Below are positions 5,321-9,118 of a stretch of DNA of 29,459 nucleotides, piece by piece. The stretch comes from a virus. The position numbers and the translations under genes are program-made. Within the stretch, counting starts at the first letter, position 1; each line of letters opens with the position of its first letter. The stretch is from IMG/VR virus record IMGVR_UViG_3300041411_000073, positions 1-29,459 of that record; one strand, given 5' to 3'. Under the pieces are notes generated by a model, which was not told the origin of the DNA, ran no database searches, and was given only the letters and a program-made list of their open reading frames with translations.

Positions 5321-6082
5321 ATGACCCAAGAAATCATCATGCCGGAAGAGCGGCACCAATCCATCGCGATCCAGCAACCAGGGCAAGAAGTCAGCATGCT
5401 ATCGACCATCAGCCGGCTGGCCCTCGATCCGCGCTGCGACATGGACAAGCTGGAACGCCTGATCGCGCTGCAGGATCGGATGGAAGCCAAGAGCGCGCTG
5501 GAGGCCTTCAACGCAGCGTTTGCCGAAATGCAATGTGAAATGCCGTCGGTGGAGAAGCGCACGCAGAACACGCACACGAAAAAGATGTATGCCGACCTTG
5601 ACGACATCAATTATGCGGTGCGCCCGATCATGGCCAAGTTCGGTTTTGGCGTGTCTTTCAAGGTAAAAAACAACGACGGCGCCGTAAAGATCATCGGGAT
5701 TCTGATGCACAAGGCCGGGCACCGCGAAGAAACCGAAATGATTTTGCCTCTAGATAAAGGCGCCCAGCGCAGCGCTGTCCAGGAAGTTGGGTCGACCACC
5801 ACCTACGGCAAACGGTACGTCATGTGCGCCCTTCTGAACATCACCAGCGGCGACGACAACGACAACGATGGATACAAGGCGCCGACCGATCCGCTGATCA
5901 CGCCTGCTCAGGCCCGCCAGGTTCAGGGGCTTTTGGACAAGTGCAGCGAAGCGGTTCACGCCAACTTCGAAAAGATGTACGGCGACCCGGGCCAGATTGC
6001 GAAGTCAGCATTTGACGGCGTGGTGGCCGGCCTCAACAACTCAATTTCAAAAGCGGCAAAGGCCGCACAGGGGAACGCATAA
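5321..6082 (+). CDS. erf: ERF-family single-strand annealing protein (253 aa)
   Basis: The protein matches the ERF superfamily (P22 Erf), which anneals complementary single strands during phage recombination and genome circularisation. Family features are the N-terminal helical segment with FNAAFAEMQCEMPSV, the RPIMAKFGFGVSF block, and the hallmark TTYGKRYVMCALLNI at about residues 160-174, followed by an acidic DDNDND stretch. The C-terminal about 65 residues are a linker and a helical tail, probably for SSB or partner contact. It overlaps the exonuclease start by one base, so annealase and exonuclease form a two-component recombinase like lambda Bet/Exo. Confidence 0.88.
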   Translation: MTQEIIMPEERHQSIAIQQPGQEVSMLSTISRLALDPRCDMDKLERLIALQDRMEAKSALEAFNAAFAEMQCEMPSVEKRTQNTHTKKMYADLDDINYAVRPIMAKFGFGVSFKVKNNDGAVKIIGILMHKAGHREETEMILPLDKGAQRSAVQEVGSTTTYGKRYVMCALLNITSGDDNDNDGYKAPTDPLITPAQARQVQGLLDKCSEAVHANFEKMYGDPGQIAKSAFDGVVAGLNNSISKAAKAAQGNA

Positions 6083-6699
6083 TGGGCATGCAAATCATCC
6101 GTGACTTAGAACAAGGATCGCCCGAGTGGCACGCGCTGCGCACTGGCATTGTGACCATGTCCGAAATCAGCAGCTTGCTGGTAGACGGCAAAGGTGTCGA
6201 AGGCTTTGGTGTAGGAGCAATCACCTACATGAACATCCTGATTGGCGAGCGCATCACTGGCGAATCGGCGGATGCATTTGAAGGAAACAAGCATACCGAG
6301 CGCGGCCACGAGCTGGAGCCGAAGGCACGCGCCCTGTACCTGGCGCAAACTGATCTTGAGTGTGATCAGGTGGCGATCATCCTCAATCACGGCTGTGGTT
6401 ACAGTCCTGACTCGCTCGTAGGCCCGAAAGGACTCAACGAGATCAAGACAAAACTCCCGAAGTTTCAGGTCGACATCATCCTTTCCGATGAAGTTCCAAA
6501 GGAACACGTTGCCCAGTGCCAGGGCGGTTTATGGCTTTCAGATCGGGACTGGATCGACTTCATCAGCTATTGCCCGGGCATGCCGCTGTTCATCAAGCGC
6601 ATGGAGCGTGATGAAAAGATGATCCGCAAGATGCAAGAGCGCGTGAAAACCTTCTACGAGATCCTTGAAGATCGCATGAATCGCGTGCTGGGTATCTGA
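6082..6699 (+). CDS. YqaJ/lambda-exonuclease family 5'-3' exonuclease (205 aa)
   Basis: YqaJ-type recombinases resect double-stranded ends to supply single strands for the annealase. Visible family motifs are QGSPEWHALR (about residues 11-20), ERGHELEPKAR (73-83), D110 in SPDSLVG, and E120-I-K122, giving the D-(n)-ExK nuclease centre. AQCQGGLWLSDRDWIDF is the conserved motif that follows. Length (205 aa) is typical of phage members. ATG 6082 overlaps the TAA of erf; ATG 6088 is a possible alternative. All key catalytic residues are present, so it should be active. Confidence 0.88.
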   Translation: MGMQIIRDLEQGSPEWHALRTGIVTMSEISSLLVDGKGVEGFGVGAITYMNILIGERITGESADAFEGNKHTERGHELEPKARALYLAQTDLECDQVAIILNHGCGYSPDSLVGPKGLNEIKTKLPKFQVDIILSDEVPKEHVAQCQGGLWLSDRDWIDFISYCPGMPLFIKRMERDEKMIRKMQERVKTFYEILEDRMNRVLGI

Positions 6700-6701
6700 T
6701 C

Positions 6702-7289
6702 GTGGCCGACCTTGCCCTTGTTCGCTCTGCCAACGGCCTGGTCGGCGCAACCGATGCCGACCGTGAGCTGATTTCGAAGATGAAATACGGCGCCACTGTT
6801 CACGGCGACTTCAAGAAAATGCGCAACGCGAAGTTCCATGGCAAGTTCTTCGCCCTGCTGGCCCTGGCGTTCGATTACTGGGAGCCCGTCGGCGGACTGA
6901 TACCACGACAGGAGTTGCGCGGCATCCACGGGCTGGCCAAGTTCTTCGAAGCCCAAAGCGGAAAGCCTGGACAGCTCTCTGATGCAGTTGCGGCCTACAT
7001 CGAAGGGCTTGAGCAGTCGCGAGCCGAACGATTTCCTGTAGTGGAGAAGAGTCGCGAAGCATTCCGCGAGTGGATCACAGTAGAGGCGGGCCATTTCACG
7101 CTTGTGAAGAGCCCAGCCGGCGTTGAGAAGCGGCCGAAGTCGATCAGCTGGTCACGCATGGACGATGTTGCGTTCGAAGCGCTTTACAAGGATGTATTTG
7201 CCACCTGCTGGCGCCTGGTCCTGCAATCACATTTCGAAACCGAGGCGGAAGCCATGAATGCAGCCGAACAACTTGGAACATTTGCATGA
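6702..7289 (+). CDS. DUF1367 family phage protein (195 aa)
   Basis: GTG 6702 is used as start, two bases after the exonuclease stop. The N-terminal segment GDFKKMRNAKFHGKFFALLALAFDYWEP is diagnostic of DUF1367, a family found in lambdoid and Pseudomonas phages next to recombination or replication genes. No catalytic motif is known. The position between the exonuclease and the DUF1364 protein suggests a part in recombination or DNA processing. The C-terminus overlaps the next gene by 4 bases. Confidence 0.8.
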   Translation: MADLALVRSANGLVGATDADRELISKMKYGATVHGDFKKMRNAKFHGKFFALLALAFDYWEPVGGLIPRQELRGIHGLAKFFEAQSGKPGQLSDAVAAYIEGLEQSRAERFPVVEKSREAFREWITVEAGHFTLVKSPAGVEKRPKSISWSRMDDVAFEALYKDVFATCWRLVLQSHFETEAEAMNAAEQLGTFA

Positions 7290-7582
7290 GCCAGAACAGA
7301 ATCACCAAAGCAGCACGCGGACGGGATTGCATGGTGCGCATCCCCGGCATCTGCAACGGAAACCCTGAAACCGTAGTGCTGGCGCATTACCGATTGGCTG
7401 GCACCTGCGGCACGGGCATGAAGCCGAACGACCTGCAAGGTGCATGGGCCTGCTCAGCTTGCCATGATGCGATTGACGGCCGGACAGATGCCAGCTCAAT
7501 CAGGGATTACCGGCTTTACCACGCGGAAGGTTGCTTCCGCACGATTGACACCCTGGTCCGTGAAGGGATTGTGAAGATCTAG
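7286..7582 (+). CDS. DUF1364 family HNH-like recombination nuclease candidate (98 aa)
   Basis: The sequence fits DUF1364: ITKAARGRDCMVRIPGICNG at the start, AHYRLAGTCGTGMKPNDL in the middle and ACSACHDAIDGR at residues 55-66. Conserved Cys/His residues C15, C23, H34, C41, C56, C59 and H60 resemble a zinc-bound HNH (beta-beta-alpha metal) fold. Family members sit in nin-like regions of phages and are suspected recombination nucleases; no activity has been shown here. ATGA overlap with the DUF1367 gene. It ends the recombination operon. Confidence 0.8.
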   Translation: MSQNRITKAARGRDCMVRIPGICNGNPETVVLAHYRLAGTCGTGMKPNDLQGAWACSACHDAIDGRTDASSIRDYRLYHAEGCFRTIDTLVREGIVKI

Positions 7583-7691: not shown

Positions 7692-8657
7692 ATGAACCTG
7701 CAAGAAAAAGAACTGATCGAACAAGCGCGCATGATGAACGTCCCTGCGCATGAATTTTCAGCCAAGTTCATTGCTCGCGATCTGGTCGAAGCGGCTCTGA
7801 CAGCTGTTCGCAAGAACACGAAGCTGAAGGAAAACCAAGAAGCCAAGCTGATCGACGATCTGAACGACGCGGTGAAAGATCTGATCAGTTCGGCGGTTGC
7901 CGTGATCGCTGCCAATGGCCGATCCGCAATCGTCACCACCGTGAAAAGCGTAATGGTGGCCGGCAAGACCATTCGTGTTGTGTCTGATGTCGACACCAGC
8001 GATCCGCAGCGCCACGCCCTGACCGACACCGTCAACCACCGTGCGCTGCTGGTGCTGGCGCCGGACGAATACTACGACGCACTCGACAGCAACAAGCCGC
8101 AGAAGGACCAGAACGATTTGCCTCTGGAGGCGGAACCGGAAAACCCATTGGGCGCCCTTCAACAACTGGCCGATGAAAACGCTAAACAATGGCCGGACGA
8201 CCTGGCCAAGCCAGCTCCACTGACCCCGTATGAACTGGCTTTCAATCACGTCACCGGTGGCGGCGATATCAGTGCGAAGGCGATTCAGACCGCTGCTGGC
8301 GTGAAGCGCAAGGACGTAACCGACATCATCCTGGCCCTGGCCGAAAATGGCGTGATCAGCGCTCCGGATGACGAAGGCCTGCGCACCCTGCTTGTTCCGA
8401 CTATGACAATCGTTGACGAGTTCGCTGAAGTCTCCGACAAGGCCATTGAATCACTGAACAAGTCCCAGCCATTCAACGAAGACCAGTACCTTGACGCCGT
8501 GCTGATGGTGCAGCGTGAACGCAAGGTCAGCATCAGCTTCATCAAGTCGAACTTTTCCGTCGACGAAGAAACCGCCGAAGCCATGATTCTGCGCATGGAG
8601 CAGGACGGCGTGATCTCGGCACCGAACGACATCGGCGGCCGCGCCATCTACGACTGA
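7692..8657 (+). CDS. phage protein with two tandem FtsK-gamma-like winged helices (321 aa)
   Basis: ATG 7692 was chosen over 7677 because TGGGA lies upstream at usable distance. Residues 1-135 are a helical plus beta domain I do not recognise; residues 135-175 are an acidic/Pro linker. Residues about 178-236 and 261-321 are related repeats, each ending in GVISAP(D/N)D(E/I)G. The second aligns without gaps to the gamma domain of FtsK as I remember it (pattern DxAVxFVxxxRKxSISxVxxxFxxxxxxAxxIIxxMExxGIVS). In FtsK this domain reads KOPS DNA and contacts XerD. There is no translocase motor here. The Asn/Arg of the FtsK recognition helix appear replaced (EETAEAM), so specificity probably differs. 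A terminator follows at 8664. Confidence 0.65.
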   Translation: MNLQEKELIEQARMMNVPAHEFSAKFIARDLVEAALTAVRKNTKLKENQEAKLIDDLNDAVKDLISSAVAVIAANGRSAIVTTVKSVMVAGKTIRVVSDVDTSDPQRHALTDTVNHRALLVLAPDEYYDALDSNKPQKDQNDLPLEAEPENPLGALQQLADENAKQWPDDLAKPAPLTPYELAFNHVTGGGDISAKAIQTAAGVKRKDVTDIILALAENGVISAPDDEGLRTLLVPTMTIVDEFAEVSDKAIESLNKSQPFNEDQYLDAVLMVQRERKVSISFIKSNFSVDEETAEAMILRMEQDGVISAPNDIGGRAIYD

Positions 8658-8663
8658 TCACCA

Positions 8664-8686
8664 CCGGGGCTTCGGCCCCGGCTTTA
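8664..8686 (+). terminator. rho-independent terminator
   Basis: CCGGGGC (8664-8670) pairs perfectly with GCCCCGG (8675-8681) around a UUCG tetraloop, followed by CTTTA. The U-run is short but the stem is very stable. It lies 6 bases after the stop. Confidence 0.75.
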
Positions 8687-8695
8687 TCGGTGTGT

Positions 8696-8809
8696 GATCT
8701 GTAGTTGGCCTCGGGGGATCAGGGTCCATTGCAGAAGCGATGCGGTTGATTAGGTAGCGCTGCCGAAGTCAACGTAAGTCTTTTGGGTTCGAATCCCAGC
8801 CAGATCGCA
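8696..8809 (+). ncRNA. tRNA-like structured element with canonical T-arm
   Basis: TTGGG-TTCGAAT-CCCAG (8783-8799) is a textbook tRNA T-arm. CCAGATC after it pairs 6/7 with GATCTGT at 8696 and 6/7 with GATCAGG at 8717. Between them CATTGC/GCGATG (8727-8742) and GTTGA/TCAAC (8745-8773, enclosing a GGTA/TGCC stem) can pair. An alternative closing helix is GCGAT..GG (8737-8745) with CC..ATCGC (8800-8808). No ordinary D-arm or 7-nt anticodon loop can be drawn, and the end is CACA rather than CCA. It is a decayed tRNA, a tRNA mimic or an attachment-site remnant rather than a normal tRNA gene. Confidence 0.35.
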
Positions 8810-8842
8810 CAACCAATACAGCCAAACCAATGGGGAAACATC

Positions 8843-9118
8843 ATGTGTAACTGCCACAGCGAAACAACAAAAACTCTGCGCGAACACGTAGCCAATCAGT
8901 TGCCGGCCGGCGCAACAGGGCTTGATCTTGAGCTGCAAGGCTATGTTTTCAGCCTTGGTGGCGCTGACGGGCTGAATCACCGTGCTGCGATGCCGGTTGC
9001 AATCGAGTATCAGGCTCCAAAGAAAACTGGCGGCATGAAAACCGTAAAGCAGAAGATCTCTATGCGCGCCACCTTCTGCCCGTTTTGCGGGGTGAAATAC
9101 GACAAGGGCGCGGCGTAA
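8843..9118 (+). CDS. small zinc-binding phage protein (91 aa)
   Basis: ATG 8843 has GGGGAAA upstream; the longer frame from 8783 would overlap the tRNA-like element. The protein begins MCNCHSE (C2, C4) and ends with C79/C82 (FCPFCGVKY), which together could hold a zinc ion. The middle is polar and beta-rich (LDLELQGYVFSLGG). Related small phage proteins with a CPFCGxKY end are common and uncharacterised. The TAA overlaps the next ATG. Confidence 0.65.
   Translation: MCNCHSETTKTLREHVANQLPAGATGLDLELQGYVFSLGGADGLNHRAAMPVAIEYQAPKKTGGMKTVKQKISMRATFCPFCGVKYDKGAA

Follow-up and report, generated by a model that had tools for sequence, protein, structure and literature searches.

The γ domain of the DNA translocases FtsK and SpoIIIE (PF09397; structures 2ve8, 2ve9 and 5dcf) is among the known systems closest to the phage protein analysed here. 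We take its KOPS-contact triad to be N1296, R1300 and E1303 (Asn/Arg/Glu), with N1296 presumably serving both KOPS and XerD contact. For the E. coli domain, the XerD contacts listed in Table 1 of Keller et al. (2016; PMC5052618) are Q1288, R1289, R1292, I1293, G1294 and N1296. Motorless γ domains in phages have already been published, with their function stated as unknown, and according to the same source the small terminase of the Bacillus phages Sam46 and Sam112 (Samaravirus) consists of an N-terminal FtsK_gamma domain fused to Terminase_2, with conserved DNA-binding residues (PMC8190038). A phage-encoded XerD activator, XafT of the V. cholerae satellite phage TLC-φ, is also mentioned in the literature (PMC9765430).

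The protein described here shares something with each of these systems. Its second winged helix is alike to FtsK/SpoIIIE γ by Pfam score and gapless alignment, but there is no motor and the KOPS triad and XerD contacts are replaced. As in the Samaravirus small terminase, a phage encodes γ without the FtsK motor; unlike that protein it has no terminase domain, Terminase_2 not being among the Pfam matches listed up to E 10. The likeness to XafT, compared by description rather than by sequence, is that of a phage protein thought to act on the Xer system, whereas phrog_6576 records show no dif-like site and the XerD contacts of our protein are lost.

Results

The gene and its surroundings

The gene lies in a viral stretch of 29,459 nucleotides (IMG/VR record IMGVR_UViG_3300041411_000073), here called the window. 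Its source phage is Pseudomonas-type, and the structural genes of the window include a terminase similar to that of epsilon15 and a head-tail connector (PF12236). The features referred to below are as follows.

5321–6082, plus strand: Erf-family single-strand annealing protein (SSAP; PF04404, E 1.2e-21; phrog_155)
6082–6699, plus strand: YqaJ/RecE-like exonuclease (PF09588, E 1.1e-11; phrog_149)
6702–7289, plus strand: NinB/Orf-type protein (PHROGs; phrog_319, E 2.4e-52) or DUF1367 protein (Pfam; PF07105, E 5.2e-51)
7286–7582, plus strand: YbcO-like HNH nuclease (PF07102, E 1.6e-41; phrog_131)
7692–8657, plus strand: motorless FtsK-γ-related phage protein, phrog_6576 member, 321 residues (open reading frame and translation)
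7692–8105, plus strand: family-defining N-terminal domain, residues 1–138, mostly helical with two predicted strands (alignments A1–A3)
8106–8126, plus strand: DQNDLPL peptide, residues 139–145, resembling a β-clamp-binding hexapeptide (family conservation)
8220–8399, plus strand: WH1, winged helix whose helix 3 begins with KRK, residues 177–236 (AF2, VIA, hhalign)
8472–8654, plus strand: WH2, diverged FtsK-γ winged helix, residues 261–321 (PF09397, hhalign)

The gene thus follows, in order, Erf, YqaJ-type exonuclease, NinB/DUF1367 and YbcO-like HNH genes. The product of 6702–7289 is named a NinB/Orf recombination mediator by PHROGs and DUF1367 by Pfam; phage annotation may be mixing up the two names. 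Directly 3′ of the stop codon, 8664–8681 form a perfect stem-loop, CCGGGGC-TTCG-GCCCCGG, followed by only three T in a row, at which the terminator scan made no call. A tRNA T-arm-like stretch, GGGTTCGAATCCC, is present shortly downstream at 8785–8797; ARAGORN predicted no tRNA and Rfam gave no match at 8500–9000.

Translation confirmed what the preliminary description had reported for this reading frame, two segments ending in GVISAP(D/N)D(E/I)G (GVISAPDDEG in WH1, GVISAPNDIG in WH2), and the start methionine is the same residue in alignments of close relatives. The protein was also correctly described as motorless: neither Pfam nor PHROGs shows an ATPase motor family, and the match to the NCBIfam FtsK model is confined to its γ end. 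The AF2 model is of modest confidence (mean pLDDT 66, pTM 0.29); Foldseek gave no PDB match at E ≤ 0.001, and its matches among viral models were all family-like or uninformative.

A known family with a misleading label

Placement of the protein in phrog_6576 is firm (E 7.5e-41 over residues 1–237), and the same family is matched by 42/42 aligned members. PHROGs v4 annotates it as unknown function. Relatives in eleven phage records, all of Pseudomonas phages, are 24–26% identical to the window protein, and most of them are labelled FtsK translocases or ATPases; the GenBank products 'DNA translocase FtsK' and 'DNA segregation ATPase FtsK/SpoIIIE' occur in phi297, AF, HU1, PfAn1 and others. On phrog_6576 members, 'DNA translocase FtsK' is often a mis-annotation. 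The family backbone comprises the N-terminal domain, a nearly invariant DQxxLxL peptide and a C-terminal γ-related winged helix, all common to the window protein and the members in phi297, AF, HU1 and PfAn1. Most P. aeruginosa members carry an intact γ cassette at the place where the window protein has WH1. Family counts rest on homology selection, a set picked by the DQ signature having been discarded, and a scan of genome contigs with alignment A1 returned 78 pattern stretches and no confirmed relative.

The N-terminal domain is modelled with a pLDDT of about 54–74 per block. Pfam, NCBIfam and PADLOC returned nothing convincing for it, the RdgC domain (PF04381) is not among the Pfam matches listed up to E 10 for the protein, and the best PDB sequence match is viral ORF131 (E 0.0037 over 58 residues). 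Its profile is present in 11/398 Pseudomonas genomes and 1/369 genomes of the class.

Neighbours were counted in the 50 loci longer than 6000 bases among 62 dereplicated rows, where the relative L002 stands for the window. An SSAP (Erf or RecT) lies within the flanks in 41/50 and an exonuclease in 32/50; in the other 9/50 no SSAP was found with the queries used.

One γ relative and one winged helix related to it

WH2 matches PF09397 (FtsK_gamma) with E 1.5e-9 and 37.9 bits, above the gathering cut-off of 30.6, and its residues 264–319 align without a gap to P. aeruginosa FtsK γ. In hhalign it reached 95–96% against 25 distinct host FtsK γ domains and 97% when compared with the other family members' C-terminal domain; controls using the N-terminal domain stayed under 1%. 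A PDB search with the WH2 profile found FtsK. The sequence comparisons make a solid case for WH2 as a genuine FtsK-γ relative, and it corresponds to the winged helix at the C terminus of the other family proteins. In the window model the γ match of WH2 in VIA has a Z of only 6.9. For the model of the relative L005, VIA placed γ at residues 162–224 and matched the C-terminal domain mostly with ribosomal-protein winged helices, so that fold alone would not name WH2 a γ domain.

The core of WH1 is better modelled (pLDDT 77–86). PF09397 touches one of four WH1 rows, at E 0.18, a PDB search with the WH1 profile found no FtsK, and hhalign gave 7–13% against host γ and about 85% against WH2. In the window model the best structural match of WH1 is KOPS-bound FtsK γ (2ve9_B, Z 9.7; next unrelated fold 7.1), a match that may be biased, as the model's alignment may pair WH1 with the true γ domains of relatives, as alignment A1 did. 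For the L005 model, where γ and WH1 are separate, VIA lists no row for WH1 alone. Since sequence methods do not place WH1 in PF09397 and the model is possibly biased towards γ, the original observation of two tandem FtsK-γ domains is partly confirmed: it stands for WH2, while WH1 is a winged helix related to WH2 and, by sequence, only a putative γ domain. The codons of the common GVISAP ending differ between the two, so a recent DNA duplication did not produce them. A MarR-type match for WH1 is weak (E 0.0087 in the whole-protein Pfam search), and the VIA matches of the window model include many transcription-factor winged helices. Searching viral records with WH1 returned six loci, all within the window's lineage; the phage collection, searched with a cut-off of E 10, gave no match.

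Changed contacts in domains under purifying selection

The KOPS triad positions read E, A and L in WH2 and K, D and L in WH1, in agreement with the earlier remark that the Asn and Arg positions appeared changed. By alignment, the XerD-contact positions read K, S, S, V, D and E in WH2, all changed, and Q, T, G, V, K and K in WH1, all changed except Q1288 and I1293; the replacement of I1293 by V, found in both, is mild. Against L003, L004 and L005, dN/dS is 0.11–0.28 for WH1 and 0.08–0.31 for WH2, indicating purifying selection, and the helix-3 stretches KRK[D/E]V[T/A]DIIL and EETAEAMI[L/F]RMEQDGVIS are almost constant in 6/6 lineage members. As both winged helices are constrained despite their changed contacts, they are probably functional, with an altered specificity or role, and may, as the preliminary description suggested, recognise another sequence. 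The net charge of both is negative (−3 and −6), which lends no support to DNA binding.

At up to three mismatches, a dif-like site was found in 0/18 phage records of relatives (these records may be fragments), and the same search was positive in 2/2 Pseudomonas chromosomes. Dif-like matches in the window, phi297 and P52 were not above chance, the window's best being no better than in resampled sequence. KOPS were counted on the plus and minus strands of flanks in 51 hand-picked loci: 3/23 observed and 6.7/14.4 expected with an intact γ, 5/12 and 5.7/8.2 with a divergent or degenerate γ, and 4/25 and 6.0/11.4 without the cassette. The counts did not differ by γ state across these loci. Flanks of all γ states have more KOPS-like octamers on the strand opposite the gene; being common to all, this minus-strand excess is uninformative on γ.

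A conserved clamp-like peptide

Of 107 distinct family proteins, a set that includes many near-copies, 100 contain [DR]Qxx[LM]x[LF], six have close variants and one is truncated; the strict peptide is found in 56/62 dereplicated rows. D139, Q140 and L145 are invariant in alignment A3, the DQ form is expected at 0.7% after shuffling, and pentapeptide-like forms (DQGELL, DQTELL) are among the variants. Residues 140–152 have a pLDDT under 50. Described clamp-binding hexapeptides include QLSLPL of Hda and QFKLPL of Caulobacter HdaA, as given in PMC3836487. Compared with the QLxLPL type, QNDLPL keeps Q, L, P and L but not the Leu at position 2. The simplest reading of DQNDLPL is that of a putative sliding-clamp tether. 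A relative on a Paraburkholderia phymatum plasmid (L229:4965-5486) has the N-terminal domain only, with RQTSIPGL at the peptide position and no winged helix recognised by Pfam.

A γ cassette that comes and goes

Three main builds occur in the family. One consists of the N-terminal domain and the C-terminal winged helix; the other two add a γ domain between them, an intact FtsK γ in one build and a degenerate γ in the other. Across the 107 distinct proteins, 60 have an intact triad by pattern, 8 a strong but altered match and 39 no or a degenerate γ; the pattern missed L255 (GYNRAARFIE), which is therefore counted as divergent. On an N-domain tree of 62 rows, with 'none' and 'degenerate' scored as one state, a minimum of 13 changes is required for the intact state, each of them imposed by branches with good support. 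L246 and L241 differ by the clean presence or absence of the cassette and are 95% identical over residues 1–172 and 88% over the last 82. Such repeated gain and loss of an intact host γ suggests that phages use γ as a plug-in part. Exchange between phages may account for these changes. An origin of the cassette from one phage source is not rejected on 60 columns (p-AU 0.49), and many captures from hosts are therefore not claimed.

Within the window's lineage the cassette is absent from 5/6 distinct members (window/L002, L003, L004, L308 and L309, of which L308 and L309 stand outside both the cassette count and the tree). The remaining member, L005, matches the window protein at 59% in the best tblastn segment and has an intact γ besides WH1 and WH2 (best PF09397 stretch 162–221; whole-protein E 1.9e-36), about 85% identical to that of Pseudomonas chromosomal FtsK.

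The 68 proteins with a strong γ match yield 24 distinct recognition stretches, in which the XerD contacts Q1288, R1289 and N1296 are kept in 24/24, R1300 in 22/24 and E1303 in 19/24. This small sample, in which N1296 presumably counts for both functions, hints that XerD contact may matter more than KOPS reading for the cassettes. In L261, L265 and L267 the XerD contacts of the cassette are intact while the KOPS triad region reads GYNRAAELMN, so that nature has separated the two sets of contacts; a second γ-like winged helix comes after the cassette.

FtsK γ on other mobile elements

Eight phage or plasmid proteins outside the family had a γ match in our scan, six of them RdgC fusions and one an NA37 fusion. 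PF09397 and RdgC (PF04381) occur together in phages PA8, ST2-1pr, Skulduggery and KLER1-1 and in plasmids pHm21 and P. koreensis p2. RdgC with a C-terminal FtsK γ is seen in phages and plasmids of several genera (L228:3020-4240, L227:2257-3417, L230:1891-3207, L301:1535-2737, L302:1625-2737 and L303:1688-2866). The nucleoid-associated protein NA37 (PF04245) is fused to an FtsK γ with GYNRAARFLE on plasmid R716 (L299:1412-2695), and a stand-alone γ of 83 residues on plasmid pF023 (L300:2459-2710) is annotated DNA translocase FtsK. These fusions resemble the window protein in attaching γ to recombination- or nucleoid-type proteins of mobile elements and differ from it in the main domain. By inspection, 6/7 fusions keep the N, R, E triad, Skulduggery having D for E. 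In Skulduggery the RdgC-γ gene precedes NinB and HNH genes. No paper linking RdgC or NA37 with FtsK γ came up among the listings of our searches of the open-access literature.

Discussion

We favour, at a probability of about 0.35, a model in which the window protein, tethered to the clamp, serves as an accessory to the homologous-recombination module that the phage itself encodes. DQNDLPL, in a flexible linker, would tether the protein to the sliding clamp of the host DNA polymerase and so hold it at phage replication forks, the site of Erf/RecT annealing. WH1, through the basic start of its helix 3, would contact DNA, and WH2, instead of reading KOPS, would offer a docking surface. The intact host-type γ cassette that relatives carry in between would add KOPS or XerD contact; the window lineage usually lacks it. 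The model draws on the SSAP and exonuclease linkage, the conserved clamp-like peptide, the domain assignments, the selection on both winged helices and the cassette pattern, and is also backed by the RdgC-γ gene adjoining NinB and HNH genes in Skulduggery. Against it stand an N-terminal domain without a known fold or function, the modest AF2 confidence, the negative net charge of both winged helices and the 9/50 loci in which our queries found no SSAP; short motifs can also mislead.

The preliminary description had proposed that the protein interferes with FtsK or XerCD. On that view, the γ-like domains would sit on XerD or KOPS in the infected cell and so prevent chromosome dimers from being resolved. 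WH2 as a true γ relative speaks for this, as do the XerD contacts Q1288, R1289 and N1296, which every strong-γ stretch of the family retains. The window protein, however, has lost both contact sets in WH2, while WH1 keeps only Q1288 and, with a mild change, I1293, and its lineage mostly lacks the intact cassette. Because nearly all KOPS and XerD contacts are changed and no dif-like site was found in the relatives' records, such interference is not supported and seems distinctly unlikely; relatives with an extra intact γ (L005, phi297 and others) are better candidates for it than the window protein. A role in activating Xer, so that the phage could integrate or dimers be resolved at a dif-like site of the phage, is less credible again. 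XafT, reportedly described by Midonet et al. in 2019, provides the precedent, and no tyrosine integrase was found in the records of three close relatives (which may be incomplete), but phi297 has its own integrase, and the dif searches and the changed XerD contacts argue against such an activity.

It is possible, if doubtful, that the protein stands in for RdgC, as a nucleoid-type protein, targeted by γ-type domains, that keeps host RecA or nucleases in check during phage recombination. The predominance of RdgC, with NA37, among the γ fusions outside the family points this way, as do the shared NinB and HNH neighbours of the Skulduggery gene and ours; the N-terminal domain, however, scores no PF04381 and no structural match to support it was found. 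Two winged helices binding a phage operator, as in a transcription regulator or other sequence-specific DNA-binding protein, would account for the weak MarR-type match of WH1 and for the transcription-factor folds among the structural matches. We regard this as unlikely given the conserved position within recombination modules, the negative charge of both winged helices, and an N-terminal domain and clamp-like peptide which, to our knowledge, do not occur in MarR proteins. The loss of all KOPS residues could mark a decaying γ remnant without function, which we find hardly credible in view of dN/dS values of 0.08–0.31 across both winged helices and three relatives and of the near-invariant helix 3.

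The clamp-tethered recombination accessory can be set in a broader and more speculative frame, which we offer tentatively. FtsK γ may be a detachable address tag of mobile elements, a KOPS/XerD-reading host module swapped in and out of motorless phrog_6576, RdgC and NA37 proteins to direct them to dif or the terminus of the chromosome. In the window lineage this tag would have been mostly dropped, and two re-specialised winged helices with a clamp tether would redirect the protein to replication forks or phage DNA.

The earlier interpretation is thus partly supported. The window protein is a real motorless FtsK-γ-related member of a known, uncharacterised family, and belongs to a lineage mostly without the host-type reader. 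Natural pairs with and without the cassette, such as L246 and L241, are ready comparisons for what a KOPS- or XerD-reading module does for a phage, and the clamp-like peptide provides a specific, residue-level prediction for the whole phrog_6576 family.
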